A stretch of DNA of 64,000 bases from Proteinivorax tanatarense. GTDB taxonomy: Bacteria > Bacillota > Proteinivoracia > Proteinivoracales > Proteinivoracaceae. Made by a program: the position numbers and the translations under genes. The stretch is taken from contig NZ_CP158367.1 of NCBI RefSeq assembly GCF_040267685.1, forward strand, positions 2,604,001-2,668,000. Direction: 5' to 3'. Positions 1,335 through 22,942 of the stretch are shown here, in pieces; the stretch's first letter is position 1, and every line of letters begins with the position of its first letter. Under the pieces are notes generated by a model. The model made no database searches. It was not told where the DNA came from and saw nothing but the letters and a program-made list of their open reading frames with translations.

Positions 1335-1348
1335 CACAATTCTCCTCT

Positions 1349-3310
1349 CTAATCTTTCATATAGTATTCTGTTTCAAATCCATCTGCGTTCATCGGTAGC
1401 CCTTTTGCCCAAGGAATCCGCTCTGACATGATGCGGTTTATCTCATTAAGCGAGCTTTCACCCTTTGGGACATCTAGAACCACTTCATCATGGATATGGG
1501 CCACGATCTTAAAGCCTTTCTCATCCAGCCTTAGTAGGGCTTCTGCCAAACAGTCTCTTGCTGTCGCCTGAACAATATTTTCAACGAGACGACCTCCGTA
1601 TGTGCTTATGCGACCCCAAGCTCTAGTGGTCTGCTCCATGCCTTCATAGGTGAGCTTCTCCCTGTTAAACCGCTCATCCATCTCAATTCTTGGTTTTACA
1701 TACACAAGGTTTCTGCCTGAGGGTAGCTGGATAAAGAGCATTCCGCTTTTGTAGTAAAACTTCAGTCCGTGCCGCATAGTTACGAGTGTTCTTCCCTTGA
1801 CGGCTTTTATAGCTGCATCTTCTATCGCATACCAAGACTTCACAATGTTAGGATTGGCTTGTCTCCATGCGTCCACAATCCTTTTAAGCTCACTTTCACT
1901 AAGGCCCATTCTGTCAGCTCCCATAGCTTTCAGAGCTCCAACACTGCCCTGGTAGCCACAGGCCAAGGTTGCTATTTTACCTTTAGCCCTCAGCTCGTAC
2001 TCAGGATTGCCCCTCACAATTTTCTCAAGGGGTACACCAAACATGCGGCTTGCTGCCATTTCATAAATCTTCCCGTGTCCTTTAAATGTTTCCATTACCC
2101 ATGTCTCATTTGCTAGCCATGCAATTACCCTAGCTTCAATAGCACTAAAGTCTGATACGATAAGGCGATGACCTTTTGATGGAATAAAGGCGGTTCTAAT
2201 GAGCTGGGATAGGGTGTCCGGCACCGAGTCAAAGAGCATCTCTAAGGTTTCATAGTCTCCAGCTTTCAGAAGTTCTCTGGCAATGTTTAGGTCGGCCATG
2301 GTGTTTCTGGGCAGGTTCTGTATTTGTATTAATCTTCCAGAAAATCTCCCTGTGCGATTAGCACCATAGTACTGAATCAACCCTCCAGCTCTCTCGTCTT
2401 TCCTCATGGCTCTTGTCATGGCTTCATACTTTTTCACCGAGGTCTTAGACATCTCTTGCCTTAGTTCCAACAGTTGTCTCACTTCCTCAACTCCCGTTTC
2501 ATCCAGCAGTGCTGCTACTGCGTCTTTTGCTAAACTATCTACTTTTAATCCATGTATATCTTCCAACCAAGCTTTTAGCTGGGCAGGGCTATTAGGATTA
2601 TCTACCCCCGTTAAATCCTTGGCTTCCTTAGTCAATTTATTTTGATACTGTTCATCACACTTGATGGCGTGTTCTACCAACACCTTGTCGAGCCTTATTC
2701 CTCCATCATTTATCTTTTGGTCCAACTCCCATAGCTTCTGCTCCTTATCTATCATGGGGAAGGGAGTAAGCTTTCGCCTAATCTCCCGTTCCACCTCTAC
2801 ATCCTTTTTGCAGTAGGACTTAAACAACTCCCACTTCTCCCTGTCATGCACTGGCAGGTTTCTCGTTCTCCCGCCATTAGTGTTAGTGGCCCTGCAGGGC
2901 ATGGAGAAATATCTGATAAGAGCTTTACCTTCTTTCATCTTTTGTTCTTTGAGTCCTATCACCTTAGCCACTGCATCAAGATGTCCCGGCAGGCCCATAG
3001 TGAGTGCATGGGCCTGAGAGCATCTCCACTGCTCTGCTGGCATGTCCATTCCTAGATATGCTTTTAAGCAAGTTCTTTCAAACTGAGCATTATATGCTGT
3101 CTTAATTACTGTAGCGTCCGTTAATGCCGCTATAACCTCTTCTGGGATTGCTTCACCGCTTACTAAATCCACTACTTGTACTTCTTGATCATCAAAAGCA
3201 TAAGCAAAAAGTAGAATTTCAAAGTCCTCTGACTGAGAATATGGGTAGACTCCACTTTTTATGAGGTCAACACTGCTATAGGTTTCTAAGTCAATACTAA
3301 GCACTTTCAT
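1349..3310 (-). CDS. Phage family A DNA polymerase with 3'-5' exonuclease
   Basis: 653 residues from ATG 3310 (GGTGATAGGG just upstream); an upstream GTG at 3322 adds four residues. The N-terminus SIDLETYSSVDL is the DxE Exo I motif of a 3'-5' exonuclease. The polymerase domain shows motif A (VSDFSAIEARVIAWLA), motif B (RAKGKIATLACGYQG) and motif C (VAHIHDEVVLDVP, the HDE metal site). The size fits phage-type PolA enzymes that lack the 5' nuclease. It replicates the phage genome. The gene directly follows the DUF2815 gene, overlapping it by one base if the GTG is used, and precedes the antirepressor, all in one operon. The family is certain from the motifs; processivity factors are not seen. 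Confidence 0.95.
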   Translation of the reverse strand: MKVLSIDLETYSSVDLIKSGVYPYSQSEDFEILLFAYAFDDQEVQVVDLVSGEAIPEEVIAALTDATVIKTAYNAQFERTCLKAYLGMDMPAEQWRCSQAHALTMGLPGHLDAVAKVIGLKEQKMKEGKALIRYFSMPCRATNTNGGRTRNLPVHDREKWELFKSYCKKDVEVEREIRRKLTPFPMIDKEQKLWELDQKINDGGIRLDKVLVEHAIKCDEQYQNKLTKEAKDLTGVDNPNSPAQLKAWLEDIHGLKVDSLAKDAVAALLDETGVEEVRQLLELRQEMSKTSVKKYEAMTRAMRKDERAGGLIQYYGANRTGRFSGRLIQIQNLPRNTMADLNIARELLKAGDYETLEMLFDSVPDTLSQLIRTAFIPSKGHRLIVSDFSAIEARVIAWLANETWVMETFKGHGKIYEMAASRMFGVPLEKIVRGNPEYELRAKGKIATLACGYQGSVGALKAMGADRMGLSESELKRIVDAWRQANPNIVKSWYAIEDAAIKAVKGRTLVTMRHGLKFYYKSGMLFIQLPSGRNLVYVKPRIEMDERFNREKLTYEGMEQTTRAWGRISTYGGRLVENIVQATARDCLAEALLRLDEKGFKIVAHIHDEVVLDVPKGESSLNEINRIMSERIPWAKGLPMNADGFETEYYMKD

Positions 3311-3321
3311 CCCTATCACCA

Positions 3322-3849
3322 CTAGGATAAAAAGTCATCTTCAACAGCGGTAAAATCATCTTCTGCTTTTGGCTTGCCGCCTAGTGGTTCTCCGTCCTCT
3401 AGTTTTTGGATATTTTGAAGCCCACAAGCAATCCCCTTATTCCCATTAGCATTGTAGGCGTAAAACACGACACTCACTCTACAATAGCAACCGGAGTAAA
3501 ACTCTGTAGCATCAAGTATTGGCTGTAAATCCTTATCAACTACCCCCGGCTTTACTTTGCTATTGGCATTGATAAAATAGCTGTCGGCATAAGCTTCATC
3601 CTCTGGCCGATCTACATCACCATCACGAATGGGCGTTTTAAGATTTGCCGGTATTTTTCCGCCTAACTTGGATACTCCCTCTTTCTTGGCTGTTTCAATA
3701 GCTTTATTGATTTTATCTAGGGTCGTCTTATCACTTTTAGGAAAGATAAAACTAAGGCTATACTTAGGTTCACTTCCATTAACTGATTTAGGGTTAACTA
3801 CACTTACATAACTTGCAAGACCTTTTCCTGTAATTACTTTGGTTGACAT
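3322..3849 (-). CDS. DUF2815 ssDNA-binding-type phage protein
   Basis: 175 residues. The N-terminus (MSTKVITGKGLASYVSVVNP) and the segments KYSLSFIFPKSDKTT, PIRDGDVDRPEDEAYAD and FINANSKVKPGVVD are characteristic of the DUF2815 family, which is found beside phage DNA polymerases and DUF2800 nucleases. Members have an OB-like fold and are thought to act as single-stranded DNA-binding proteins. The C-terminus is strongly acidic (AEDDFTAVEDDFLS), as in SSB proteins, where the tail recruits partners. The gene sits between DUF2800 and the polymerase. Function is inferred from family and context. Confidence 0.88.
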   Translation of the reverse strand: MSTKVITGKGLASYVSVVNPKSVNGSEPKYSLSFIFPKSDKTTLDKINKAIETAKKEGVSKLGGKIPANLKTPIRDGDVDRPEDEAYADSYFINANSKVKPGVVDKDLQPILDATEFYSGCYCRVSVVFYAYNANGNKGIACGLQNIQKLEDGEPLGGKPKAEDDFTAVEDDFLS

Positions 3850-3866
3850 ATATTATCACTACTCCT

Positions 3867-5024
3867 TTATAAGTTGTTTTTAAAATCGATTTCTGCACTG
3901 CTTTTTACAGCAGGCCGTTTATCATCTTCCGGTACTAATCTCAATTTCCCAGGTGGCTTTTTAATAAGGTCACCGATAATTTGGCTGAACTCTTTTTTCC
4001 CCAACTCTTTTTCAAGCTTTGTAAGACTCAATAAGGATTTAGAATAGATCCGTTCTTCTGGATACCCAGCATTTAATAGCTTTTCTGCCACTTCTTTTTC
4101 AGAGGTGTACTTTCTTGTGGCTCTGCCCTCTACCAGCTTCATGCCGGGCCATGTCTTACCACATCTTGCCTTTTCAAAAGCGTAACTTTCTACATCAGTG
4201 GCCCATTTCTTAAATTCCTGTGCCTGCAGTAACACTTCTGTAATTTCCTCATCTGTTAGAAGTGCCGGTTCTTTAAAGTCCATGCAAGCCAACCTCATAT
4301 TTTCATCATGGCGAGCTCGGCACGTGGCTTTTACCTTACAAAAGCGGCAGTGCTCTCCGGGCTTAAAGTCTCCCTCTCCCTTAAAGGCTGCTTCTGCTCT
4401 TGGCCTTACAACTTCCTCTGCCCACTTTATAAGGTCTTTTGCTTCCATTTCATCGGTGGAAATGTTATCGAGTCTCGGCTGAATGATGGTCATCCTAACC
4501 GCCTTAATGTCGTAGAGAACGCCAAAGGTGTTAATCGCTCCTAAAGCATAGAGCCGAGCTTGGGGATTCCCAACTGCAGAAACTGCCACGCCTTTGCCTC
4601 CCTTTAGGTCAATTACTTCCAACACATCGTCTGTTACAATTACCACATCGCCAGTCCCAAAGCCCTCCCTAACCCACGGGCTGTAGTCCAGTCTTTCTTC
4701 AATTAGAATAAGTGGGTCTTTGCAACTGGATCTGGCTTCGTTAATTCTCTCAACCACAGCTGCTACATACTCATCCACCGCTGTCTGTATTTCCTCTGAG
4801 TAGAACTCACTTTTGTGCATCTGCTTAAGGTTTTTTTTAAAAGCGGCTTTCTGGATGTGACCTAGATGATGATGCAGATACAGCTCTGATAACCCATGCA
4901 TGAAAGTTCCCTCCATGGCATAGGGGCTGGTGGTATCCTCTATCTCTTCTTCCAGCCTGACACTCGGGCTGCAGTGGAGCCATCTGTGAGCCCCTGAAGC
5001 GGAAAGCAAAGCATGAGCCGCCAT
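3867..5024 (-). CDS. DUF2800 phage protein, PD-(D/E)XK nuclease-like
   Basis: 385 residues starting MAAHALLSASGAHRWLHCSPS, the typical DUF2800 N-terminus. The region around residues 105-150 (ILIEERLDYSPW, GTGDVVIVTDDVLEVIDLKGGKG) has the GxxD...(D/E)xK layout of RecB/Cas4-like PD-(D/E)XK nucleases. A cysteine set (HCRFCKVKATCRAR near residue 225) resembles the Fe-S cysteines of Cas4/AddB-type enzymes. It probably processes DNA ends in phage replication or recombination. The start codon abuts the stop of the next upstream gene (5024). The nuclease role is inferred from motifs. Confidence 0.88.
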   Translation of the reverse strand: MAAHALLSASGAHRWLHCSPSVRLEEEIEDTTSPYAMEGTFMHGLSELYLHHHLGHIQKAAFKKNLKQMHKSEFYSEEIQTAVDEYVAAVVERINEARSSCKDPLILIEERLDYSPWVREGFGTGDVVIVTDDVLEVIDLKGGKGVAVSAVGNPQARLYALGAINTFGVLYDIKAVRMTIIQPRLDNISTDEMEAKDLIKWAEEVVRPRAEAAFKGEGDFKPGEHCRFCKVKATCRARHDENMRLACMDFKEPALLTDEEITEVLLQAQEFKKWATDVESYAFEKARCGKTWPGMKLVEGRATRKYTSEKEVAEKLLNAGYPEERIYSKSLLSLTKLEKELGKKEFSQIIGDLIKKPPGKLRLVPEDDKRPAVKSSAEIDFKNNL

Positions 5025-5296
5025 TAAATCTCACCGGCTTTCTCTAGGATCTCTGCATACTTGTCTTCCGGAATATCACTGAGTTTCTTAGCACCAAAGC
5101 CAGTTATGAGTTCTTTGACTTCTTTTTGCTTTCCACTTTGCGATAGTTTGGCCAGTGCACCCCTGACTTCCTTAAAGCTAGGCTTCTTCTTTTTTGTTGC
5201 CGCTTCTGCACCATCTGCCTGTTGCTCTTTTGCTAATGCTTCAATGCTGTCTGCCAATTTCCTAAGATCCTTTGCAACTTGAAGGGTACCTTTCAT
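5024..5296 (-). CDS. Small phage protein of replication block (90 aa)
   Basis: 90 residues from ATG 5296, which has an AGGAGG ribosome binding site 7-8 bases upstream; a GTG at 5305 is less likely. The N-terminal half is a coiled stretch (VAKDLRKLADSIEAL) with a lysine-rich linker. The C-terminal half (FKEVRGALAKLSQSGKQKEV, LITGFGAKKLSDIPEDKYAEIL) matches a small family often found before DUF2800 genes in Firmicute phages and sometimes loosely annotated as rRNA biogenesis rrp5-like. I see no catalytic motif; it may be a replication accessory or DNA-binding protein. The preceding gene overlaps its start. Confidence 0.75.
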   Translation of the reverse strand: MKGTLQVAKDLRKLADSIEALAKEQQADGAEAATKKKKPSFKEVRGALAKLSQSGKQKEVKELITGFGAKKLSDIPEDKYAEILEKAGEI

Positions 5297-5498
5297 GGCC
5301 CGCACCTCCTTCCTTTAGTTCTTTGATCTCCACCGTCTCGACTGAATCACCGGGTGTAATCACAAGTAAACCCACATTTTTTCCTAGTAACCAATCAAGC
5401 ATCTTACTTCGGACGGTTTTCTTGCTGCTTTCAATTACAGGGTTTTTGTCGCTACCGGGCTTTGTCACATTGATTGTGACTTTGTGTTTAAGGCTCAT
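5262..5498 (-). CDS. Small phage protein of replication block (78 aa)
   Basis: 78 residues from ATG 5498, chosen because AAAGGAG stands 8 bases upstream; the in-frame TTG at 5516 lies before that site. The sequence MSLKHKVTINVTKPG, then a basic stretch, LLGKNVGLLVITPGDSVETVEIKEL, matches short beta-rich phage proteins with a conserved VLVITPGxxVExVxIxEL tail. It ends with an extra tail (KEGGAGHERYPSSCKGS) that overlaps the next gene by 35 bases. Function unknown; first small gene after the sigma-like factor. Confidence 0.7.
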   Translation of the reverse strand: MSLKHKVTINVTKPGSDKNPVIESSKKTVRSKMLDWLLGKNVGLLVITPGDSVETVEIKELKEGGAGHERYPSSCKGS

Positions 5499-5574
5499 TT
5501 TCCGACTCCTTTCCAAGGGCGATTAATTTGCCCCTCATCAATAAGCGAAAATAATAGACTATTCGAACCCCTTT

Positions 5575-6069
5575 TTAGGAAAAGTTTTTTCTTAATTTTG
5601 CATGGATCTTTTTTAGCCGTTTCCGGATTGCCGCTTCCGTTACGCCTTCTTCAGCAGCGATGTCTGTGTTGGAACGCTTGTCCATATATACTTTCTTAAA
5701 CAGTTCTTTCTGCTGCGGCAAAAGACAATCCATAGCTTGAGTAAGTTTACCCAGCATTTCTTGATGCTCGCCTTCTTCCTCTGCGTCAATACAAATGCTC
5801 TCAGGGTTTAAACTTTCATCTGCTAGGTATTTGTTACGATCATCTACTGACTCATTTTCACCGTTGCAATATGCATCTAAATGAGCACTGATCTTATACA
5901 CGTAGCGGTTGTGTGCGTCCACTTCATTGTCGTCAATAGAATGAAGCAGTGAGATGTCTGCTTCAGTAACTCCGTTTTCTCCTGGAGTAATAACGATTTG
6001 TCCCCCTTCAGCGGGATAATAGATGTAGTGCGTTCTCTTCTTTTGGCTTGTTTTGTACTTTTTTAACAT
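5575..6069 (-). CDS. Phage sigma-70-like factor, region 4 HTH
   Basis: 164 residues from ATG 6069, preceded by GAGAGGGG; longer starts at 6123 lack a ribosome binding site. The C-terminal third (MLGKLTQAMDCLLPQQKELFKKVYMDKRSN... then IAAEEGVTEAAIRKRLKKIHAKLRKNF) is a sigma region 4-type helix-turn-helix. The N-terminal part is an aromatic/basic strand region (THYIYYPAEGGQIVITPGENGVTEADI) followed by an HNRYVYKISAHLDAY segment, as in small sigma-like proteins of phages and integrative elements. It is the first gene of the replication operon and probably directs or modulates transcription of element genes. A short inverted repeat (TCTCT/AGAGA) partly overlaps its ribosome binding site. Confidence 0.8.
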   Translation of the reverse strand: MLKKYKTSQKKRTHYIYYPAEGGQIVITPGENGVTEADISLLHSIDDNEVDAHNRYVYKISAHLDAYCNGENESVDDRNKYLADESLNPESICIDAEEEGEHQEMLGKLTQAMDCLLPQQKELFKKVYMDKRSNTDIAAEEGVTEAAIRKRLKKIHAKLRKNFS

Positions 6070-6212
6070 GTTTGGCCCCTCTCTCGGAGAGAAAAGGGCA
6101 TGACAATCAGCCAAAAAACTCACCGTTTTTTTTTAAAACGCGAGTCTTTCAGCTGCTTTTTGAAAAGTACTTCTTATGCTTCTGGTTTAAGTTTACTAGA
6201 TAATAACCTTAT

Positions 6213-6387: not shown

Positions 6388-8256
6388 TTATAAAGGATTA
6401 GCACCATGCTGCTGTAAAAAAGTTCTTATTTCATCCATTGTTTGGCTGGAAAGATGAGTTAAAGCAAAGCTGTACCATTGATGATCTGGATCAGTTAAAT
6501 TTAATGAAACCGGTGAGTTACTTATAATGTGGTTACTAATCTCTGGCGGCAAGTGTAAGCTCAAGCAGAGCAAGATAAGCGAATTGATAGAGCACTTCTC
6601 TTCACCATTAACGATTCTTCGAATCGTACGTTCATTGAGCTTGGTCCTCTCCCCAAGTTCTTTAAAAGTCACACCTCTCCATTTCTTTACCATTTTCAGC
6701 GAGCTGGTATAGCTCGTAGGAAGTTCGCCATATATACGGGCGTTTTCTGCCAATTCATCAGCTAGTAATTTGACTTTCTTTTCTTGAGTAGAGTGTTCAT
6801 ACCCGCCTCCGTATTTTATGCTAAGGCTGATATTTGAAGTTTGGTCTCTGTTCAAGAAACATTCGCTGTGATATCTTTCTCTGACATTAGATTCAATAGA
6901 CAGATCAAATACTATACAGCACTCATCCATATGAGTCCGGGCATAATCTGTTAATCTGGTGTTCCCAGACAGATCTTTCTCTAGATATTTTGGATGGTTC
7001 AAGACAAAGTGCGCATCTACATATTGGTAACTACCATCTTTAACAAGCGCATTTAGCTCTGGATTAGACATACTCTGGATTGCTGCATCTACTGCGCCGA
7101 TAGAGAAAGTTTGATTTCTCTTTAGCGAACCTTTTTTAAAACCATGAGGTTTAATGTAGCGACCATCTAAGTATGTAAATGTACCTATTGCTTCTTCATA
7201 CCCGGCATCAATCATGCGAATCTTTGCTGCAATACGAGATACGCAGAAAAAAGTAGCTAAAGCATCTATAACTGGTTCCATCACATCAATAAGCATGGTG
7301 GTTCCAGATTGTTGTTTATACTGCTTAATAAGCTCAAAAGCCTTTGTCTTAAACATAGCTAGGGGCATTTGGATTCTTGGCGCTAGGGCATTTGCTTGCC
7401 ATTCCATCCAATCAGTAGCCTCTTTATTGTTGTTTTTTATTCCTCCAGCTACCTGACACTTTATTTTGGTTGCACTGCTATTATAGAGTCTTTCTAGTTC
7501 AAATGCTTTTCTGTGCTTGTCCCAGTGCACACATTCATGAACAATGGTATTATTTACAGCACCTAGATTTCGCAGAAAATAGGCTTTAGGATCAACAAAT
7601 ATAGTCTGGGCTCTGACTGATGTACTTATGTATTCATGCTCATCTGGGTCATAGAAATCTGCCTCGCTGTCGTGAAAAAATATCTGCCCAAAAATAGATA
7701 AGTCTTCTGTTATATCCCTTAGTATCACTTCTAGACCCATTTTTTCAGCAAGTTTTTTTGGTTCAAGCGGCATAGGTTTTTTCAAGACCTCAGGATAGTG
7801 CCTTTGCAAAAAATCATTGGCTACAGCATCAAGCTGTTCCTTTTTAATATAAGGAACCAACGAGTCCGATAACGGTTGGTGGTTCTTGTTCTTTTGGCTG
7901 TAGAGACATATTTCTCTGATTGCAAAATCATCCAGGCTACATCCTAAATCCCCAGAGCATCGTAACAAAAACCACTTATTAAATAGATCGTAATCATCGT
8001 AGTGGTAATCACCCTCGTTGACCACAATTTCTGCATCTACGATAACATCAAACTCAATATTGAGCTCCGGAAAGTCCCTCACAGATACAAATTTGACTTC
8101 AACTTCTGAAAGAGAGATTTCCCCAATATGCTTTACATTTTTCAAGTCTAAATGTAAGTTGTCTGGGTTTTTTTCAATATACTTTTCTGTAGCAGAATAA
8201 AATTCGTTATAAAACCTGCTCGAGACGTAGTCAGTAAAAGAACGATTTGCCGCCAT
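6388..8256 (-). CDS. ImmA/IrrE-type metallopeptidase with C-terminal HTH
   Basis: 622 residues from ATG 8256 (GAGGGGGAG 6 bases upstream; the ATG at 8271 is part of that site). The middle carries the zinc motif HECVH (about residue 240) and a downstream EWQANALAPRIQMP segment giving the third ligand, the ImmA/IrrE (DUF955) layout. At about residues 518-565, FKELGERTKLNERTIRRIVNGEEKCS...LLCLSL is a Cro/XRE-type helix-turn-helix. The N-terminal 150 residues are of unknown type. ImmA-like proteases cleave repressors to switch mobile elements; long forms fused to HTH domains are often found beside restriction systems. It could regulate either the element to its left or the restriction cassette to its right. 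The protease call is firm, the target is unknown. Confidence 0.85.
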   Translation of the reverse strand: MAANRSFTDYVSSRFYNEFYSATEKYIEKNPDNLHLDLKNVKHIGEISLSEVEVKFVSVRDFPELNIEFDVIVDAEIVVNEGDYHYDDYDLFNKWFLLRCSGDLGCSLDDFAIREICLYSQKNKNHQPLSDSLVPYIKKEQLDAVANDFLQRHYPEVLKKPMPLEPKKLAEKMGLEVILRDITEDLSIFGQIFFHDSEADFYDPDEHEYISTSVRAQTIFVDPKAYFLRNLGAVNNTIVHECVHWDKHRKAFELERLYNSSATKIKCQVAGGIKNNNKEATDWMEWQANALAPRIQMPLAMFKTKAFELIKQYKQQSGTTMLIDVMEPVIDALATFFCVSRIAAKIRMIDAGYEEAIGTFTYLDGRYIKPHGFKKGSLKRNQTFSIGAVDAAIQSMSNPELNALVKDGSYQYVDAHFVLNHPKYLEKDLSGNTRLTDYARTHMDECCIVFDLSIESNVRERYHSECFLNRDQTSNISLSIKYGGGYEHSTQEKKVKLLADELAENARIYGELPTSYTSSLKMVKKWRGVTFKELGERTKLNERTIRRIVNGEEKCSINSLILLCLSLHLPPEISNHIISNSPVSLNLTDPDHQWYSFALTHLSSQTMDEIRTFLQQHGANPL

Positions 8257-8271
8257 AGCACTCCCCCTCAT

Positions 8272-8812: not shown

Positions 8813-8830
8813 GTGAAAAGAGGTGGAAAA

Positions 8831-10471
8831 TTGGCTAAGAAAGGGGCAAAAAAATATAACTATGATGCTAATGAGAAATTTATTGAGTATGAGGAAGAAA
8901 TCGCAAAGAATCCAGCTTACGAGGGGATGCCTGATTTAAGACTCGATGATGGTAGCATTCAATGGGAAGCACCCTCTAATAGAGGGTCCGGTAAATTTCA
9001 ATTTACTCATAATAAGCGCTTATCATGGTGGAAGAAGAAGGCCAGTCAAGTTGGAATTAGCACATCAGCAAACCATTGGATAAGTACAGTGGCAAAAACC
9101 ATACATCCTACTGGACGTAAACCCTGTAAAGTTTGCGGCAATGTCATGGATATTAGATATAGTTACTTATCAAGCAATTTTATAAAACGTGTTAGAAAGC
9201 TAGACTACGTTGATGATACATTTGAAATCTCTGATTTAACACATGTCCTCGACTTCATCGTATCTTTCTATGACACTTACGGAGCACAAATATTTGATGA
9301 TTTACCAGTATTATTTAAATGCAAACAATTTCCTACTTTTTCGGAAATTCCAAACTCTATTGATTCTTGGACAGATTGGTTAGATAAAGTCTATATAGCT
9401 GCAGAACCCAGCATGCTCGGTCCAGGAGCAATGTCTAATGCTCCAGACCGACTTGATGGTTTTCACTCTTTTAATCGATGTTGTAGAAGCAATGCTGATA
9501 AAGGTAGGTCCAAAGAAAATTTAGCTTCATATTCAACAGACAGGCGAGCATTTGAAAACTGGGTTGATGGAAATTGGATTACTGCAAACAAACTAATGGG
9601 ATACATTAGCTCCAATTCAAAAATCAAAAAGGAACCTTGCGCAAATGATGGTGATGGACATACGCACCCTCGCCCATGTAGTGCAGATCATATTGGACCG
9701 ATTTCACTAGGGTTTAGTCATCGCCCAGAATTCCAGTTGCTTTGTGCGCCTTGCAATAGTGCCAAGAATAATAGAATGTACTATTCTGATGTAAAACACT
9801 TAATTGAAGCTGAATCAAAAGGTGAAAAAGTTGTAACTTGGTATGCACAGTCTATATGGAAGTACACCAAGGATAAAGTCTTTGATACTGAAACAGCATT
9901 AAGATTAACAAGAGTTATGAGGGATAATCGGAATGTAGCAATGATGTTATTGAATGAATTTCTGGTGAATAAACACTATTTGTTTCTACTCACTTTTTTA
10001 AACTTGAGCTATGCAAATTTCGACTATAAACTCAATACGGCAGAAATTAACAATCACATTGTGAAAGCCAATTTCAGCGATACAGCCAGTACATTAAAAT
10101 ATGTCAACATACAAAAGATACGTAAAATAAGGATAGCTTTTGAATCATTAGCAGAGTATGCTAATAAAGAAAATCGTAATGGATATCTCTTCACTAATGA
10201 TTCAATTGAGAATTTAAAAAACTCAGCTTTAGACAATTTAGAAGATACATCTAGGGATATTCAGCAAATAAATAATAAACTTATTTCAATCCTTGACTAT
10301 GATGATATGAAAGATATTGACCTCGAGGAATTTTTAAACGAGATAGATTATGAGTTAATAGAGAATTACCCTGATTTTGTTAAAGTTAAAAATACTATGT
10401 TCAAAATTATGGATATGACCGCAAAAACGTTATCAGACAACTGGGACGACAGCAGGTATTCAAGAGAATAA
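8831..10471 (+). CDS. Type IIS restriction endonuclease, Alw26I/Eco31I/Esp3I family
   Basis: 546 residues from TTG 8831, which has AGAGGTGG a few bases upstream (a GTG at 8813 is the alternative). N-terminal segments typical of the family are YEEEIAKNPAYEGMPDLRLD, LSWWKKKASQVGI and AKTIHPTGRKPCKVCG with a CxxC pair near residue 100. The nuclease core is a beta-beta-alpha-metal HNH site: SADHIGP (near 287) and LLCAPCNSAKNNRMY (near 305), whose Cys pair probably binds zinc. Family members recognise GTCTC-containing sites (GTCTC, GGTCTC or CGTCTC) and cut outside them; which one this enzyme reads cannot be told here. The convergent partners are an m5C and an N6-adenine methylase, exactly the pair this family uses. 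Family call is strong, specificity inferred. Confidence 0.88.
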   Translation: MAKKGAKKYNYDANEKFIEYEEEIAKNPAYEGMPDLRLDDGSIQWEAPSNRGSGKFQFTHNKRLSWWKKKASQVGISTSANHWISTVAKTIHPTGRKPCKVCGNVMDIRYSYLSSNFIKRVRKLDYVDDTFEISDLTHVLDFIVSFYDTYGAQIFDDLPVLFKCKQFPTFSEIPNSIDSWTDWLDKVYIAAEPSMLGPGAMSNAPDRLDGFHSFNRCCRSNADKGRSKENLASYSTDRRAFENWVDGNWITANKLMGYISSNSKIKKEPCANDGDGHTHPRPCSADHIGPISLGFSHRPEFQLLCAPCNSAKNNRMYYSDVKHLIEAESKGEKVVTWYAQSIWKYTKDKVFDTETALRLTRVMRDNRNVAMMLLNEFLVNKHYLFLLTFLNLSYANFDYKLNTAEINNHIVKANFSDTASTLKYVNIQKIRKIRIAFESLAEYANKENRNGYLFTNDSIENLKNSALDNLEDTSRDIQQINNKLISILDYDDMKDIDLEEFLNEIDYELIENYPDFVKVKNTMFKIMDMTAKTLSDNWDDSRYSRE

Positions 10472-10480
10472 ATTGTTAAA

Positions 10481-10515
10481 GGCAGCAAACCAATTAATAG
10501 GTTTACTGCCCTTTT
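10481..10515. terminator. Bidirectional terminator between convergent R-M genes
   Basis: GGCAGCAAACC (10481-10491) pairs with GGTTTACTGCC (10500-10510) with one mismatch; CTTTTTATTT follows on the plus strand and CTTTAACAAT on the minus strand. It separates the nuclease from the methylase operon. Confidence 0.8.
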
Positions 10516-11702
10516 TATTTAATATTAAATAAATACTCTTCTGCTGATAATCCGCCCCTCATAAATTGCTGATATACATTTCTAGGTTCTGATGCATAAT
10601 TTCTATCACTACCATCTTCGGTTGGCTCAATTTTAGGCAAATCTGAAAGTGCATCTTCTACACTTATTGCTCTATGTAGTGAACACTCCTCTTTGAATTT
10701 TGGGTTCTTTGTTATAGGCTCCATCTTCATAGTATCTACCCATTCATTTTTTCCACCCACAATGATAACTCTTTCTCTTCTTTGAGGTATACCATACTCA
10801 ACACTGTTCAACTTATCTATTTTTAGTGATCCAACATGCTGACTTAGGTCATCTCTTATCATTTCTAGAAATTTTCCCTTTTCTAAGTTAAAAATCCCTG
10901 TAACATTTTCAAATATAAAACCTTCTGGCTTAATTTCTTCTAAGATTTTAGAATAGCCTTTAAATAGCCAGTTTCTGTAATCATCCGCTCCCCTTCTAGT
11001 ATTAGCAGTTGAAAATCCTTGACATGGCGGCCCTCCTAAAACAAAAAGTGGCAAATGGGGATTTTTTTTCTTAGCTTCTTTACATCTATCTACAATATAC
11101 GCCACAACTTCATTATCGTTAATGTCTCCCAAAATTGCATCTTCACCAATATTAATTTTGTGAGTTTCGATAGCATACTTATCAATATCATTTGCAACAA
11201 TAGCTTTCCAACCCGACCAAATAAAACCTAATGCTAGTCCTCCAGCACCACTAAACAAGTCAACAAATTGTCCTTTAAATGGAATCCTTTCGGCAATTTG
11301 ATATGCTAGTAGTGGCGGAACTGCATTTCCTATTTGATTATTAACGGCTGTTTTAGAGCCCACAAAAGTAAAACTATCTGGGAATGATTGTAACCTAGCT
11401 GCCTCTCTTTGTGAAAGTGTTCTATTCTGTTCATAGTGAATGTGACATCCATTACCCGGTCTGGTAAAATAGGTGTTTATTGTGTAGGATGGCATTTCAC
11501 TTCTTAACCTGCCATAGTAAGTTGATCTGCTGCCTTTCCCATCTTTATAGCTCTGCCTTATTTGTTCTAATCTTTTAGAAGGTACGTATTCAGGTATGTT
11601 CTTCCAATTTCCACCTTGAGGAACATGACTTATTATTTCCAAATCTAACTCACTTAACTTTGAAGCATAATGGTTACCTATCATAATCCACCAACCTTTC
11701 AT
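10515..11702 (-). CDS. Circularly permuted m5C DNA methyltransferase of the type IIS system
   Basis: 395 residues (an ATG at 11684 is a second possible start). The motif order is permuted: motif IX (RTLSQREAARLQSFPD, 94-109) and X (QIGNAVPPLLAYQIA, 123-137) come first. They are followed by motif I (FVDLFSGAGGLALGF, 146-160), IV with the catalytic Cys (GGPPCQGFS, C227), VI (ENV, 265-267) and VIII (PQRRERV). Joining the C-terminus (DALSDLPKIEP...RNVYQQFMRGG) to the N-terminus (HVPQGGNWKNIP...YGRLRSEMPSYTI) would restore a canonical enzyme, so the break lies in the target-recognition region. Permuted m5C methylases such as M.BssHII are known. It methylates cytosine on one strand of the asymmetric site while the upstream gene product methylates adenine on the other. 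It overlaps the adenine methylase gene by 29 bases. Confidence 0.92.
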   Translation of the reverse strand: MKGWWIMIGNHYASKLSELDLEIISHVPQGGNWKNIPEYVPSKRLEQIRQSYKDGKGSRSTYYGRLRSEMPSYTINTYFTRPGNGCHIHYEQNRTLSQREAARLQSFPDSFTFVGSKTAVNNQIGNAVPPLLAYQIAERIPFKGQFVDLFSGAGGLALGFIWSGWKAIVANDIDKYAIETHKINIGEDAILGDINDNEVVAYIVDRCKEAKKKNPHLPLFVLGGPPCQGFSTANTRRGADDYRNWLFKGYSKILEEIKPEGFIFENVTGIFNLEKGKFLEMIRDDLSQHVGSLKIDKLNSVEYGIPQRRERVIIVGGKNEWVDTMKMEPITKNPKFKEECSLHRAISVEDALSDLPKIEPTEDGSDRNYASEPRNVYQQFMRGGLSAEEYLFNIK

Positions 11703-13344
11703 AATTCAGAATCCTATTTGCGCTTCTGCGTAATAGTTCCTTCTCGTCTTCATCTATCTGGAAAATTGATAGTAAGTCAAAAAATTCATCTTTGCTTAGT
11801 TTGTAAATTTTAGCTACTGTACACTCTAAATCTTGCTCTGTGATTTTCTCACCTTCTAAAAATTTATCATACATGGCAGCAATGTATTCTGTATGTTTAT
11901 CTATCTTAGGAATTTTAAGCTTCTTTATTATTCCAGCTGATACATGATTTGTTGTTAAAAGAGCTCTTACCTGCATTTCAAAAACGAAAGAATTCATTAT
12001 TACGAGTAACGCCTTTAGCAAATTCAAATTATCACTTCCTAAGTACGCTGTCCCTAATGAATTTCCTGCTATATAGCCTTTTTTAACAATAGCTGCTTTC
12101 ATTGTTCGTTTTGAAGATAATCTTGCAACATCACGCCACACAATTTTGTCTTTATATACTGATGCAGGAACAGTAACAATAGATTCATCAATATACTTAA
12201 TCGGATTTATATCAATTCCAAATCTGTCAACCATATATCCTTTGATAAAAACAATATTCCCGGTTTCTTTCAGTTTTTCTGAGATGCGCGTTTCATCGAT
12301 CTCTCTCGTAAACTTTACCCCCCACAAGCTTGAGTAATATTCTATTGTCCTAAACTGCTCAAATTTCATCAGTAACGGAATTTTTTCAATGCCAATAGCA
12401 AATGGAAACGTATATGACTGTTGCTTAATATAATCATACTCACTCTCATTTAACAAGTGTGTCCTACATTCTAATTCCCGATTGAATAAAGATACACAAA
12501 TGTTTGGTTCTTCTTCACCTTTTTTTAATACCATTGATATACTTGATGTATCAGCCTTTCCATATAGTTTAGCTTCTGCAGGATAATAGTTAATATTAAA
12601 CACTTTATGATTTTGAAAAATCCACCTTCTTAATGGCACAGAAACCTGGTCACTAAGCAAGGAAGCCGGGGAAACTAATCCACACACACCTTTTTGTTGT
12701 ACAAGGTGCAAAGCAACTTCCACACCACATCTTGATAGATTCGTTCCCCATTTCCCGAATTTTGATGTCGGTTGTGACAAGTAGAACTCTTGCTTCATAT
12801 AGCTATCATAAGTGCTTATAGCTGCTTTGTATTCTTCAATTTTTATCTCATTGTGTTTTGAGTTGAATACCTTTTGAGGTTTTAATATTCCCCAAGGAGG
12901 GTTTGTAATACAAATATCAAACCCACAAGAAAATGACCTATAATTTATATATGCATCTGCAACTCTCTTTGTTGTAGATATATCAACCGAGTATTGGGTA
13001 GCTGTTTCTTTTATTCCTTTTTCGGCTTCCTGAACATTATCTAAAGAGATGTCCCATATTTCAATTTCAAGTTTTATATCTTTAAGACCCTTTTCAGATA
13101 ACAATTCAATAAATAACTTCAGTAGTCTTCCATCGCCGCAAAATGGATCAATTATCTTGATTGTAGGCTGATTAAAATGATAATTCTCAATAACTTCAGT
13201 TATCATTTTACGTGCAACATTAAAATTTGTGTAAAATTGACCTAATATCTTAGCAGTTTCAAACTCTCCAAGAACATTTTTTTCTATAAAATCATAGTAT
13301 TGTTTGCTGAATATTTCGGTATGAAGTTTTGTAATAGAATTCAA
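11674..13344 (-). CDS. N6-adenine DNA methyltransferase of the type IIS system
   Basis: 556 residues from TTG 13344, chosen because AAAGGAGG stands 7 bases upstream and a promoter ends about 20 bases before it; the longer in-frame reading to 13482 has no ribosome binding site. Motif I is IIDPFCGDGRLLKLF (65-79) and motif IV is NPPW (148-151), the N6-adenine class. The C-terminal half is a large, poorly conserved target-recognition region. The arrangement resembles Eco57I-like class methylases without a nuclease domain. Paired with a 5mC methylase and convergent with the HNH nuclease, it should protect the GAGAC-type strand if the family rule holds. Confidence 0.9.
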   Translation of the reverse strand: MNSITKLHTEIFSKQYYDFIEKNVLGEFETAKILGQFYTNFNVARKMITEVIENYHFNQPTIKIIDPFCGDGRLLKLFIELLSEKGLKDIKLEIEIWDISLDNVQEAEKGIKETATQYSVDISTTKRVADAYINYRSFSCGFDICITNPPWGILKPQKVFNSKHNEIKIEEYKAAISTYDSYMKQEFYLSQPTSKFGKWGTNLSRCGVEVALHLVQQKGVCGLVSPASLLSDQVSVPLRRWIFQNHKVFNINYYPAEAKLYGKADTSSISMVLKKGEEEPNICVSLFNRELECRTHLLNESEYDYIKQQSYTFPFAIGIEKIPLLMKFEQFRTIEYYSSLWGVKFTREIDETRISEKLKETGNIVFIKGYMVDRFGIDINPIKYIDESIVTVPASVYKDKIVWRDVARLSSKRTMKAAIVKKGYIAGNSLGTAYLGSDNLNLLKALLVIMNSFVFEMQVRALLTTNHVSAGIIKKLKIPKIDKHTEYIAAMYDKFLEGEKITEQDLECTVAKIYKLSKDEFFDLLSIFQIDEDEKELLRRSANRILNYERLVDYDR

Positions 13345-13366
13345 TTTACCCCTCCTTTCGAGATTA

Positions 13367-13395
13367 AATATACCATAAAGTTTGGATTTTATCCA
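13367..13395 (-). promoter_or_regulatory. Promoter of the methylase operon
   Basis: On the minus strand TGGATA (13395-13390), a 17-base spacer and TATATT (13372-13367). The predicted transcript start lies only about 15-20 bases before the TTG start codon, giving a very short leader with AAAGGAGG. Confidence 0.6.
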
Positions 13396-13482
13396 GTTAG
13401 ATTTAGTAGTGTAGTCATATGCTGATATACAAATTGTGACTTTACTTTTGCAAAATAGTTTAAATATAAAACAAACCCCCAA

Positions 13483-13934: not shown

Positions 13935-15035
13935 ATGTCCATAACCCCAGATAACGTTGTAACCGTCGGTTCCATTGTAAACTTGATAAACGCACTTTCA
14001 AAAGTGGAAGAATATCCATATATTAACGCTTCTACACAAACAGTTGTATCCATCGAAGATGTAACCACGCCTTATGGTCCTATTATGATTAAACGCTGGA
14101 ATCCAGCAAAAGGAGAAACAAGAAAGACCTCTACTGTCCAGTCAATATCCATGGCTATGATTAACCGTATCGCCAATGCAATCTCCGAAGGGACGCCTAT
14201 TAATATTGATAGAATCCTTGGTGCATCTTATAATACCAGATCAGCGTTGGAAACACTTCTTTGCCATACGCCCCCCTTTTATTACTGCTATCCCGGTCGC
14301 ATAGAATTAATGCAAGGAAAAACAAAAATTAAGTCTGGTCACAAACATATAATTTATTTGCCTGAAGAACCACATACTTTAGGAAAACTATGTGAGAAAG
14401 ACTTGGAGCATCTTGAAATCAATGAAATTCCTTCTAAGAATGTGGTTTATAATGCTTTAGAACTGCCTACAAGCACTACAAGAACAGGCAAAGTAGATAC
14501 AGATGAAGTAAAAATTCATTCTCAAATGCAAATGGCCATCTATGAAATTGGTTCCTGTTTTTCGTTAAAAACTTTTATTGCCCAAAACGACACTGGAATT
14601 CGCTATAAGGGAAAATCACTTTCTGAGCATGATAATATTGTTACTAAATTAAACGACATTCCTACCATAGGTGCCTTCAGTGGTGCTGTAGATGCCGGGA
14701 AGCATATTGATGCAATCTGGCTTGGAGATAAAAGCATACCAGCTGTATTTGAAGTTGAGCAATCTACTGGAGTTACCCCTGGTTTGACTCGCATGTCCAA
14801 TTTCAAAAAGACTTTACCAGAATATAGTAGCATGCGATATGTCATTGTAGCCCCCGATGAGATGCGCGACAAGGTCGTGCGAGAAATCAACAAACCTGAA
14901 TTCTCTCATCTCCGTGCATTTTATATGCCCTATACTGCCGTTAGTGAATTGTTGGGCCTTTGTCAAGAGCGTAGACTCAAGGGAATAACAGAGGAGTTCC
15001 TTGAATCGTTCTTAGACGATGTATATGGTAACTGA
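13935..15035 (+). CDS. Probable type II restriction endonuclease, PD-(D/E)XK-like
   Basis: 366 residues from an ATG with GAGAGGAG 7 bases upstream. I do not recognise a named family. The segment HIDAIWLGDKSIPAVFEVEQ (258-276) has the spacing of a PD-(D/E)XK core, D259 then E273-V-E275, with the usual Lys replaced by Glu, as in some restriction enzymes. Afterwards come LTRMSNFKKTLPEYSSMRYV and VIVAPDEMRDKVVREIN, like the alpha-beta part of nuclease folds. The gene converges on a cytosine methylase that ends 50 bases away, sharing one terminator, the common layout of a two-gene type II system. Nuclease role is inferred from motif and context. Confidence 0.68.
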   Translation: MSITPDNVVTVGSIVNLINALSKVEEYPYINASTQTVVSIEDVTTPYGPIMIKRWNPAKGETRKTSTVQSISMAMINRIANAISEGTPINIDRILGASYNTRSALETLLCHTPPFYYCYPGRIELMQGKTKIKSGHKHIIYLPEEPHTLGKLCEKDLEHLEINEIPSKNVVYNALELPTSTTRTGKVDTDEVKIHSQMQMAIYEIGSCFSLKTFIAQNDTGIRYKGKSLSEHDNIVTKLNDIPTIGAFSGAVDAGKHIDAIWLGDKSIPAVFEVEQSTGVTPGLTRMSNFKKTLPEYSSMRYVIVAPDEMRDKVVREINKPEFSHLRAFYMPYTAVSELLGLCQERRLKGITEEFLESFLDDVYGN

Positions 15036-15085: not shown

Positions 15086-16201
15086 TTAATTCCGAACATT
15101 CAGTTCTAAAAGATAGTCATTTATGGTTCTTGCTATTCCACTTGAAAGTATATATGGAACACCATTTCCTATTGTCTTAAACATGCTTGTCAAAGACATG
15201 TCCGGTGGCAAAACAAAGTTTTCCGGCAATGATTGAATCGCCAATACTTCAGCTACAGATAGTCTTCTCGCATAGTACGGGTGAAGATGAACCTCATTAT
15301 TCCCGTACGCTGCAGTTGGAGAGTACCTCCACCGATGTAGTCTTTTATAACTTTTTTTACTGCTATCCCCTTCTTGATATCGTTGCATCTTAGGCAAGCC
15401 AGCTCTCGGAGTAAAGTAGTGCTTTGCATTCGGATGAGTATTTACGTGATTCGTCTCAAACCAATGTTGGACAGTTAGCTCTCGTGGTATTCCAGAAGGC
15501 ATTGGTCTTTCGCCACCCTCCAAAAAATCTTGTGGTTCAGGCCAGTCATAACGATTTATATCTTCCATTGTATATATCTGACGACTCTGCCAAGGAAAAT
15601 CTACTAGGGTGCCGCCTCGTCGACTATTATCAAGAAGTTCACTTTTTACCCCAAATAGAAGAATCCTCTCCCTGTCTTGGGGAACACCAAACTCCAACGC
15701 ATTAACTAATTTTTCAGTCGTTTTATATCCAGCATTATGCAACATTATCTTTAACTCATCATAAAATTGTCTGTGACGCTTTGTTTTCCATAATCCTTTT
15801 ACATTTTCAAAAAGGAAGAAGTCCGGCTGTCGTTGAATAATCAGATTAATATACGAAAGTGATAATTTCCCATTTTCTCCTTCTCTTCCTCTATTCTTGC
15901 CCCCAACAGAAAAATCAGGGCACGGCGGACCACCGATGAATCCCACCAGTTCTCCACTATCTTTAACTGCATTAATATTATTAATTAATTCATTTCGTTT
16001 TGTTTCTTCATTTAGAAATGCATTGATATCACCGTTGTCATATCCATATACCGGTGGATTCATTCCAATTTGTTGTCTAGAATATTGATATGCTCGCATA
16101 AATTCTGGATCAATCTCGTTGACAAATACTATTTCAAAACCATTTGTTTCAAATCCCAAATCTAAAAAACCACTTCCTGAAAAGAACGAAAATATCTTCA
16201 C
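15086..16201 (-). CDS. m5C DNA methyltransferase, canonical order
   Basis: 371 residues from a GTG at 16201. Motif I (FSFFSGSGFLDLGFE) begins at residue 4, so the start cannot be much later. Motif IV is GGPPCPDFS with catalytic C94, VI is FENVKG (131-136), VIII is GVPQDRERILLFG. IX and X are RRLSVAEVLAIQSLPENF and TIGNGVPYILSSGIA near the end. The target-recognition region holds ELTVQHWFETNHVNTHPNAKHYF and a basic segment. Order is canonical, in contrast to the permuted enzyme at 10.5-11.7 kb. With the convergent nuclease gene it forms the second restriction-modification pair of the window. The target sequence is unknown. Confidence 0.93.
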   Translation of the reverse strand: MKIFSFFSGSGFLDLGFETNGFEIVFVNEIDPEFMRAYQYSRQQIGMNPPVYGYDNGDINAFLNEETKRNELINNINAVKDSGELVGFIGGPPCPDFSVGGKNRGREGENGKLSLSYINLIIQRQPDFFLFENVKGLWKTKRHRQFYDELKIMLHNAGYKTTEKLVNALEFGVPQDRERILLFGVKSELLDNSRRGGTLVDFPWQSRQIYTMEDINRYDWPEPQDFLEGGERPMPSGIPRELTVQHWFETNHVNTHPNAKHYFTPRAGLPKMQRYQEGDSSKKSYKRLHRWRYSPTAAYGNNEVHLHPYYARRLSVAEVLAIQSLPENFVLPPDMSLTSMFKTIGNGVPYILSSGIARTINDYLLELNVRN

Positions 16202-16712: not shown

Positions 16713-18113
16713 CTATTTATCTACTCTTGACATCAACACCACACACTCAACATGGGCTGTGTGGGGAAACATATCTACTGGTTGTATTTCTTTTACCTTA
16801 TATCCATGCTTAATTAAAAACTTAATATCTCTTGATTGAGTTATAGGGTTGCAGGATATGTATATTACCTTTTTGGGGCTTATTTTTACTAGTGACGATA
16901 GAAACCTTTCGTCGCTGCCGCTTCTTGGTGGATCCATTACTACTACGTCTAGTTTTTGCCCTTCTTCTTTCATGTGGAGCATAAATTCTCCGGCATCTCC
17001 TTCGTAAAAGCGGGCGTTTTGGACTTTGTTTAGTTTGGCATTTTTTATTGAGTCTTTTACTGCATCTTTGTTAAGCTCTACTCCTATTACTGATTTTACT
17101 TTCTCGCTTAGGATTATGCCTATTGTTCCGATGCCGGAGTAAGCATCCATGACCACTTCATTTCCTTTAAAATTTGCCATTTCTATGGCTTTGCCGTATA
17201 GTTTTTCTGTTTGGGTGGGGTTTACTTGGTAGAAGGATTTTGATGATATATTAAAGGTGTATCCGCATAATGTGTCCTTTATGGTTCCTTTGCCGTAAAT
17301 GACTTTTTCTCTGTTTCCTAACACCATGCTGGTTCTTTTGCTGTTTATGTTTTGGATGATTGTTGTTATTTCAGGGTGCTTTTTACGGAGTGCTTTTATA
17401 AAGTTATTTTTTGATGGAAACATGGGGCCTATTGTAACTAGTACTACCATTACTTCCTTTGTGGCAAATCCTACTTTAACTAGCACGTGTCTTATAAGTC
17501 CTGTGTCTCTTTCTTCGTCATAAGCTTTCAATTTAAAGGATTTCATAAGTTCTCTTATGGTTTTGTTTATCTCATCTGACTTGCTGCTTTGAATGAGGCA
17601 CCTTTCAACAGGGATTACTCTGTGACTTTGCTCTTCGTAAAAACCCGATACTATCTCTTTGTTTTTGTAGGAGTATGTAGCGTGTATTTTGTTGCGATAG
17701 TCATAGGGGTTGTCCATCTTAATGATAGGGTTTGCTTTGCCAAAGGGTTTCATTAATCTTTCTACCAAACTCTGTTTTAGCTGGGCTTGATCTTCATATG
17801 ATATGTGCTGGAGCTGACATCCTCCACATTTTTCATAATGTTTGCATTTGGCTTTAATTCTTTTGGCGGACGGTTTTATAACCTTTAAAATCTTTCCTGT
17901 GATGAACTTCCCTTTTTTAATGATTTCAATTTTTGCAGTTTCGCCTTTTAGAAGGTTGGGGATGGGTATCTGTTGATTGTTGTAAGATATGATGCCTTTT
18001 CCTTCTGAATCATAGTCTATACAGTTAGCTTCTATTGTTTCTTTTTTTGAGGAGGGTTTGTGTCCTCTTTTTTTGTTGTTGTAGTTTCTGTTGGAGTTTC
18101 TTGTTTTCTTCAT
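16713..18113 (-). CDS. rlmD: 23S rRNA (uracil-C5)-methyltransferase RlmD/RlmCD-type, copy A
   Basis: 466 residues. A basic head (KKTRNSNRNYNNKKRGHKPS) leads to a TRAM RNA-binding domain (about 25-90) and an iron-sulphur site CKHYEKCGGCQLQH with a later Cys in VERCLIQSS. The SAM domain has DAYSGIGTIGI and the catalytic pair VVMDPPRSGSDERF and YISCNPITQSRD. The C-terminus is the conserved PVDMFPHTAHVECVVLM. It methylates U1939 and/or U747 of 23S rRNA. Firmicutes often carry two such paralogues, and the second is at 21.5-22.9 kb. Which site each one modifies cannot be read from sequence. Confidence 0.92.
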   Translation of the reverse strand: MKKTRNSNRNYNNKKRGHKPSSKKETIEANCIDYDSEGKGIISYNNQQIPIPNLLKGETAKIEIIKKGKFITGKILKVIKPSAKRIKAKCKHYEKCGGCQLQHISYEDQAQLKQSLVERLMKPFGKANPIIKMDNPYDYRNKIHATYSYKNKEIVSGFYEEQSHRVIPVERCLIQSSKSDEINKTIRELMKSFKLKAYDEERDTGLIRHVLVKVGFATKEVMVVLVTIGPMFPSKNNFIKALRKKHPEITTIIQNINSKRTSMVLGNREKVIYGKGTIKDTLCGYTFNISSKSFYQVNPTQTEKLYGKAIEMANFKGNEVVMDAYSGIGTIGIILSEKVKSVIGVELNKDAVKDSIKNAKLNKVQNARFYEGDAGEFMLHMKEEGQKLDVVVMDPPRSGSDERFLSSLVKISPKKVIYISCNPITQSRDIKFLIKHGYKVKEIQPVDMFPHTAHVECVVLMSRVDK

Positions 18114-18584: not shown

Positions 18585-19490
18585 TTACCTCAAATATTGT
18601 ATAGCAAGTGCAATTAGTGATAAACAACGATTGAAAAGATAGTCGTAATAACGGACATTAGTAATATCAATCTTATTAGTTTCATGATGCCGTATGCGAT
18701 ATTTATTTCCAATGTCCGTCAACATCTTAAATTCATTATTAAACAAATCGGCAAAATCATCATTTCCATTAGCCATATCATTTACTATTTTTTCTGATGA
18801 ATGTTTCTTATCTAATGTTGTATAGTAAGTTTTTAGACGTTCTAACGCATCCCATATCTTTTCCACTGAATCTTGTCGTGCTGCAGAATTTGGTGTCTTA
18901 TATAATGCAACAGCATCTTTCAACAACTCTCTTGTTCCTACTTCATGTACTGCTGCAAAATTGCTTTCAATTTCCGTTGTAAGTGGGCTGTTCTCAACAA
19001 TTCTTTCTATAATCTTTTCATCAGTTAGTTCATAAAGTAATCCCGACTCAGTAAATATTTCATTTATTGCCTCTTGGAAATTTTTAAATATATCTGAAGA
19101 ATTAAGACAGTCTATCGTTTGGTAGTTTCGGTATTTCTCATTATTCCATCGTTCAGAGATATCCTTAATATTTTGTGCAAAGAACTCAATGAGGTCTAAA
19201 AGTGCATACTGATCATATTCATCGTCATATGCTGGCGTGCAAATCCTATCATACTCATCCCGAAAAAGAGACGGGATTCTTATTTTAATTCTAGTTATAA
19301 ATCCTTTTTCATCAAATGCAACATAATTACTATCTGTAAAGTCATGATGACAGTTTAGAGTGAAAATATGTGTTAAGTTTTTTTGATACCTTTTACAGCA
19401 ATCTAAAATTAATGAATACATATCTCTGTTAATAGAATATGTCTTTTCCAGTGGTGCTCTTATACCATGCCTTTCAGAATATAATTTCAT
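18585..19490 (-). CDS. AbiJ-like predicted abortive-infection protein, partner of SIR2
   Basis: 301 residues, ATG with GGAGATGG 4-7 bases upstream. The N-terminus MKLYSERHGIRAP resembles the LFSERNG opening of AbiJ-NTD4-type abortive-infection proteins. The middle has a conserved-looking DSVEKIWDALERLKTYY (208-223). The end has LTDIGNKYRIRHHETNKIDI (257-276) followed by a hydrophobic helix YLFNRCLSLIALAIQYL, a layout seen in HEPN-type C-terminal domains of Abi proteins. The RIRHH segment does not give a strict Rx4-6H HEPN motif. No signal peptide. It is the second gene of a pair with the SIR2-like gene (68 bases apart). Family placement is tentative. Confidence 0.55.
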   Translation of the reverse strand: MKLYSERHGIRAPLEKTYSINRDMYSLILDCCKRYQKNLTHIFTLNCHHDFTDSNYVAFDEKGFITRIKIRIPSLFRDEYDRICTPAYDDEYDQYALLDLIEFFAQNIKDISERWNNEKYRNYQTIDCLNSSDIFKNFQEAINEIFTESGLLYELTDEKIIERIVENSPLTTEIESNFAAVHEVGTRELLKDAVALYKTPNSAARQDSVEKIWDALERLKTYYTTLDKKHSSEKIVNDMANGNDDFADLFNNEFKMLTDIGNKYRIRHHETNKIDITNVRYYDYLFNRCLSLIALAIQYLR

Positions 19491-19558
19491 AAGCCATCTC
19501 CTAATTTCCTATTTATCAGTTATTATACAGGTAACTTTCATTTCGCCATTTAATACAT

Positions 19559-20638
19559 CTACACATATGGATCTAAGAGGAGTTGATTTGTTCCCTTTTT
19601 ACGCTCCTCATCAATTATTAAATCACATGTCAATTTATCTATGTCGGAGAAATCCATATTCGATTTAAATCCTTTATCTGGTTCTAACCATTGATCACTC
19701 ATCAGTCTATCAAATGTTGCTTCACAACTCCTCCTAGGGCACCTCCCTATTGTTGTTGTAAAAAAACTGTTATGATACGAATAATGATGCGTATGAATAA
19801 AATCTTCCCACGACTCTATAACCTCATATTCATCACGCAAATCAACTATTTCTATTTCCTCATACTTTCTCTCTTCTGCCGCACCCCATGCTTTTTTCAA
19901 CATTGCAATAGCTTCTACATCACTTTTAGGTGCACTATATCCGAAAATAGTAACCATATATGCTACCTCTAACGCATTATTCAATGATTTCCAAGACTTT
20001 GATATAGATATATCACTGGCATAATCTTTATTCTTTATTGGAAATAATAGCTTTGTTGGAGCAAGGGGGTTACCACATCTACATGGCATCCCAACATTGC
20101 CCATAACATTATCCTCTAAACAACACCCAACTGCAACATTTCCATGTAAAAAAGCTAACTGTGGCAGATTGGTAGTATAAGCCATAGCGCGAGCATAAGC
20201 CTGAACCAATAACGGATCCCAATTAAAGGTTGCAATTAAATCCTTTGAAGTTAGTCCCATAATCAAATAGTCATAAACTGTAGGACTTTCAGGCAACTTG
20301 AAGCTTGTCATGTAGTCATGGATGACTTCCTCTAATTCATGCTTGACATCCATGCAATTAGGCTCTGTTTTACTGCGCTCATCAAGTTCCATATAAATAT
20401 CTTCTAAATTCCCCGAAGAAGTGTTTATATTAATTTTTTCTAGTATATCTGTCAATCCAAGCTTTTCAATGAAACCATTCATTGCAGATATTTTTCTGCC
20501 ATTCTTGTCTCCATTTGGGATTGCTGCACAACTCGCACCTGCACCCAGTATAACAACATGTGGTCTGCTCTTCATGTAATATTCATAATCATACAAATCC
20601 TTTGGTGTTGGATAAACATCCTTCATTCTCCATTTCAT
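19559..20638 (-). CDS. SIR2-like NADase-type defence protein
   Basis: 359 residues (ATG 20638; a second ATG at 20626 is possible). SIR2-type features are present in order: VVILGAGAS (28-36, nucleotide-binding loop), ATFNWD (136-141, the TxNxD catalytic segment) and AFLHG (162-166, catalytic His165). Then come cysteines 172, 173, 186 and 188 in a short zinc-module-like insert (MPCRCGNPLAP) and VTIFGYSAPKSD, the C-terminal Rossmann strand of the SIR2_2 family. Bacterial SIR2-like effectors such as ThsA and DSR proteins deplete NAD+ on phage infection. It heads a two-gene operon with the AbiJ-like gene, follows a 20-codon ORF, and has its own promoter. Anti-phage role is inferred. Confidence 0.72.
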   Translation of the reverse strand: MKWRMKDVYPTPKDLYDYEYYMKSRPHVVILGAGASCAAIPNGDKNGRKISAMNGFIEKLGLTDILEKININTSSGNLEDIYMELDERSKTEPNCMDVKHELEEVIHDYMTSFKLPESPTVYDYLIMGLTSKDLIATFNWDPLLVQAYARAMAYTTNLPQLAFLHGNVAVGCCLEDNVMGNVGMPCRCGNPLAPTKLLFPIKNKDYASDISISKSWKSLNNALEVAYMVTIFGYSAPKSDVEAIAMLKKAWGAAEERKYEEIEIVDLRDEYEVIESWEDFIHTHHYSYHNSFFTTTIGRCPRRSCEATFDRLMSDQWLEPDKGFKSNMDFSDIDKLTCDLIIDEERKKGTNQLLLDPYV

Positions 20639-22902: not shown

Positions 22903-22942
22903 ATAAAATTCTCCCTCACTTTTCTTCTTTTTCCTCACAACT

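Follow-up and report, generated by a model that had tools for sequence, protein, structure and literature searches.

A circularly permuted cytosine-5 methyltransferase in an Alw26I/Eco31I/Esp3I-type restriction-modification locus of Proteinivorax tanatarense

The stretch of the Proteinivorax tanatarense genome analysed here (64,000 nucleotides, positions 2,604,001 to 2,668,000 of contig NZ_CP158367.1; hereafter the window) carries a restriction-modification (R-M) island in which the gene of a circularly permuted m5C DNA methyltransferase (M2; 10515..11702, minus strand) lies between two genes of the Alw26I/Eco31I/Esp3I family. M2 is an intact open reading frame of 395 amino acids, with an alternative start (ATG at 11684) that would give a protein beginning MIGNHYASKL. 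The start of M2 is overlapped by M1 (11674..13482, minus strand), the gene of an N6-adenine DNA methyltransferase of the Alw26I/Eco31I/Esp3I type (TIGR02987, 386.7 bits against a cut-off of 353.5) that is 33% identical to the M1 of Buttiauxella. Convergent with M2 is the gene of a Type IIS HNH endonuclease of the same family (R; 8813..10471, plus strand; TIGR02986, 518.7 bits against a cut-off of 443.85), which falls in RE_Alw26IDE (PF09665, E 1.4e-175) and is 46% identical to the R of Buttiauxella. The island also holds a second R-M pair, again of convergent genes: a predicted endonuclease (13935-15035, plus strand; PDLC03534, E 2.9e-93), for whose product a PDB sequence search gave no useful match, and a canonical m5C methylase (15086-16201, minus strand; PDLC03355, E 5.9e-164).

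A prophage early region (549-6123) lies beside the island and encodes an anti-repressor, a phage DNA polymerase, an ssDNA-binding protein, an exonuclease and a sigma-like factor; elsewhere in the phylum, a genome has a similar sigma-like gene beside an m5C-containing locus (L053, 10889-11467). At 6388-8271 (minus strand), a 627-aa protein matches phrog_4031 over nearly its full length (E 2e-196) and, weakly, IrrE/M78 peptidases and Cro-type HTH domains. On the other side, an AbiJ_NTD4-domain protein (18585-20638, minus strand; PADLOC candidate PDC-S32, E 2e-154) is encoded beside a 359-aa protein; flanked by genes resembling RNA uracil methylases (16713-18113 and 21541-22938), this region looks like another defence insertion.

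The motifs of M2 run from the target-recognition domain (TRD) through IX, X, I, IV, VI and VIII, so that IX and X precede I, and do not follow the canonical order from I to X. The end of the TRD (FTRPGNG, residue 79) is followed by motif IX (RTLSQREAARLQSFPD, residue 94), motif X (NNQIGNAVPP, residue 121), motif I (FVDLFSGAGG, residue 146, with FSGAGG at 150), the catalytic PPC of motif IV (LGGPPCQGFS, residue 222, with GGPPCQGFS at 223), motif VI (FENV, residue 264) and motif VIII (QRRERVI, residue 307). Since the PPC cysteine, ENV, QRRxR and the SAM-binding FxGxGG are all retained, the set of motifs for catalytic competence is complete at the sequence level. Block HMMs divide the gene in the same way: the N-terminal block (11283..11675, minus strand; E 3.5e-57 with a TRD-X model trained on canonical and permuted enzymes) holds the entire TRD with motifs IX and X, and the C-terminal block (10539..11267, minus strand) holds motifs I to VIII (I-IV, 11001-11267, E 2.8e-28; IV-VIII, 10539-10994, E 4.4e-48) and the conserved ...DALSDLP...YQ-FMRG end. 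The canonical models TIGR00675 and PF00145 each match native M2 in two separate stretches (the best being 146-339 and 145-357); when M2 is rotated in silico to begin at motif I, each matches in one (1-329 of 329 and 2-322 of 324, respectively), which confirms both the permuted order and the proposal, made in the original prediction, that joining the C-terminus to the N-terminus recreates a normal m5C enzyme. The PADLOC model for permuted-type enzymes, PDLC03381, covers native M2 from end to end (E 7e-141).

Judged from the aligned sequences, the break is at the border between motif VIII and the TRD, between ..YQ-MRG.. and NH..LS-L. In the rotated-order alignment, nearly all canonical relatives run through ..YQ--MR.. 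and some six to eight residues into NH.., and the M2 chain appears to end where a canonical TRD would begin. The termini fall at this same point in the 13 permuted proteins of the alignment and in six more from viral contigs, that is, in 19 of 19 intact permuted proteins. The break had been placed inside the target-recognition region: it does lie in the variable region, only at the N-terminal border of the TRD and not within it, and the whole TRD is therefore carried N-terminally. AlphaFold2 folds M2 in its native order with confidence (pLDDT 80.3, pTM 0.85) when given 10 sequences, the TRD half being less certain (pLDDT about 60-80); with 4 sequences the model was poor (pLDDT 62). The motif I-VIII half of the model superposes on M.HhaI (Z 17.4, 185 residues, 2.7 A), and DNMT1 also matches (Z about 15), its residues 1136-1404 corresponding to model residues 141-385. 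The alignment of the reordered sequence, proposed at the outset like the structure prediction, is continuous with canonical enzymes, TRD included. The conserved break point lends support to the published view that both domains stay intact in natural permutations.

A frameshifted or misassembled canonical gene could in principle mimic this order, and a related locus does have a frameshift: a Roseomonas plasmid carries, together with a VSR endonuclease and M1, a permuted m5C gene (L021, 5028-6266) whose reading frame is shifted, unless the sequence is in error. For the window gene we give such an artefact practically no weight. Its reading frame is intact, it is single-copy in a one-contig genome, and motif order and break point are identical across many independent relatives; moreover, a six-frame scan of the window with the I-IV, IV-VIII and TRD-X blocks matched only M2 and the canonical m5C gene at 15086-16201. 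With no further motif block nearby and the same order in independent assemblies, frameshift and misassembly are excluded, and the permutation withstands the check that the original prediction had named as its possible undoing. A chimera, with N- and C-terminal blocks from two different methylases, is not favoured either: single canonical enzymes align with rotated M2 without interruption, also across the TRD. Nor is a duplication remnant the rule, as a second motif-I fragment was found in only one of 20 permuted loci scanned, a viral contig (L058) where the fragment (3786-3905, E 7.5e-8), from another, divergent m5C methylase, lies directly upstream of the permuted gene (3875-5203) and overlaps it; by eye it diverges from motif I of the permuted gene itself and hence makes a poor case for a duplication intermediate. 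Another viral contig (L065) has tandem m5C genes (3311-4414 and 4383-5432) that overlap by about 30 bp, the gene arrangement from which permutation by duplication would start.

The permuted gene almost certainly belongs to a Type IIS system of the Alw26I/Eco31I/Esp3I family that is complete with its three genes: the locus has the TIGR02986 endonuclease, the TIGR02987 adenine methyltransferase, the permuted m5C methyltransferase and the M1-M2 operon with convergent R, and the suggestion to compare it with Alw26I and Esp3I systems proved a correct lead, R and M1 both exceeding their family cut-offs. The original prediction had rightly read the m5C methylase at 15 kb as canonical and had taken it for the partner of M2. 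That M2 is paired with this enzyme, or is an orphan, is very improbable. The two m5C genes are indeed 3.4 kb apart, and orphan permuted methylases are known on Thermus phage phiLo and three viral contigs, where no Alw26I-type M1 or R was found within the flanks covered (L017, 4986-6185; L056, 3950-5182; L057, 3890-5200; and the L058 gene); these are candidates for phage self-protection against BsaI-type restriction. M2, however, overlaps M1 and faces R, its true partners, and the canonical enzyme, with only about 29% identity to M2 from motif I to motif VIII, adjoins its own, different predicted endonuclease.

Alw26I, Eco31I and Esp3I systems recognise GTCTC, GGTCTC and CGTCTC, respectively, and cleave outside the site (1/5). 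For the system of M1, M2 and R we infer the exact site, the assignment of strands and activity: M1 and M2 would modify opposite strands of an asymmetric site, most likely GGTCTC (Eco31I/BsaI), on which M2 would make GGTm5CTC, and R would cut unmodified DNA beside it. This is not without precedent: in Eco31I/BsaI, two methylases take one strand each and an HNH endonuclease cuts unmodified DNA nearby (PMC3874165, PMC4659465). Genomic word use points, indirectly, the same way. In 1.26 Mb of host genome (60 stretches plus the window), GGTCTC occurs 117 times against a Markov expectation of 169.6 (0.69, P 1.2e-5, rank 14 of 4061 hexamers), with 0.66 in 464 kb and 0.70 in an independent 800 kb; a congener genome without a PF09665 match has it at 0.89. 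Such avoidance is not in itself proof of the site, as it is matched or exceeded for other words, including GGGCCC (0.56) and GAGCTC (0.59); GGGCCC, the most avoided hexamer in the sample, is a candidate target of the second R-M pair. Esp3I (CGTCTC) or Alw26I (GTCTC) specificity belongs to the same family, and CGTCTC shows a weak deficit (0.84, P 0.06), yet either is unlikely: among the four NGTCTC words, GGTCTC shows the strongest avoidance (AGTCTC 1.07, TGTCTC 1.20), M2 falls in the tree within the clade of enterobacterial Eco31I-type enzymes and has the TRD segment SYxxGKGSRSTYYGRL in common with them, and separate M1 and M2 genes agree with Eco31I, as Esp3I has them fused (PMC3874165). Eco31I/BsaI specificity is thus the likely one.

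More permuted enzymes of this kind have been described than the initial view of only few had implied: by 2018, REBASE held 27 permuted m5C enzymes of the Alw26I/Eco31I/Esp3I family (PMC5944983). Among complete E. coli genomes, 631 out of 5426 have a gene that shares 99% identity or more with the E. coli homologue, the best hits being annotated as Alw26I/Eco31I/Esp3I family. The same permuted order is found in Buttiauxella, Enterobacter and a Bacteroidetes MAG, on plasmids of E. coli, Lactococcus and Enterococcus, and in phage phiLo, a faecal phage contig, further genomes and viral contigs. The M1-M2 operon with convergent R recurs in Buttiauxella and Enterobacter (L004, L005), and an E. coli Eco31I-type locus of the same layout adjoins McrBC. 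M2 is thus genuine, intact and typical of a family that had already been described; by itself it extends that family by one protein, whose predicted specificity is GGTCTC (BsaI-type).

Among known systems, M2.Eco31I and M2.EcoMI (and M2.BsaI) are the closest in kind: they too are permuted, with IX-X ahead of I-VIII, and their loci have M1 as a gene of its own upstream and R in convergent orientation. In E. coli ST131 the target of the system is GGTCTC, and its M2.EcoMI does not differ from M2.Eco31I (PMC4659465). The homologues of E. coli, Buttiauxella and Enterobacter are about 56% identical to the window M2 (56-57% for Buttiauxella and Enterobacter); the differences are ordinary sequence divergence and the setting of the window gene, beside a prophage early region and in another phylum. 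M.Esp3I, M.BsmBI and the Gram-positive fusions have the same permuted m5C domain with the same break point, but join it to M1 in one protein of about 950-1010 aa (L006, L015, L016, L019, L055, L059, L060), where the window has two genes; in the tree, the fused form occurs in at least two separate permuted clades. M.BssHII, the first permuted m5C methyltransferase to be described, belongs to a different R-M system and, going by its description, has its N-terminus in the variable region.

The canonical enzymes nearest to rotated M2 are those of BpuSI-type systems (41.6% identity over 3-382 for L020, 40.2% for L022). They share 40-42% identity with it over the full length including the TRD, and their genes likewise lie downstream of an N6 methyltransferase; their motif order is canonical, and their endonuclease is the unrelated, bifunctional RM.BpuSI. 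BpuSI-type loci (L020, L022, L062-L064) run from the N6 methylase through the canonical m5C gene to an RM.BpuSI-like protein; the window locus, with its RE_Alw26IDE endonuclease and permuted m5C enzyme, looks different and is not such a system. The base modified by M2.BpuSI is the first C of GTCCC (PMC3817140), a sequence that differs from GTCTC at a single position. In the tree, the 13 permuted proteins lie on one side of a branch (85/92) with the BpuSI pair as neighbour (90/89), which suggests a common origin of the permuted Alw26I-type and canonical BpuSI enzymes. We tentatively hypothesize, somewhat short of even confidence, that a single permutation occurred in an ancestor shared with the BpuSI M2, already behind an N6-adenine methylase and methylating the first C of GTC(C/T)C, and that horizontal transfer later spread the permuted form, also to phages, which carry it without the endonuclease; a single origin is put as a hypothesis because the tree supports are moderate and M.BssHII was left out. 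The M1-M2 operon itself is a separate matter: the window M1 matches the N6 methyltransferase of BpuSI systems weakly (20% identity, E 0.003 for the pair), and shared operon ancestry is not supported. With one lineage permuted and the other canonical on near-identical targets (GTCTC, GTCCC), the two families form a natural pair for studying how a methylase tolerates being circularly permuted.
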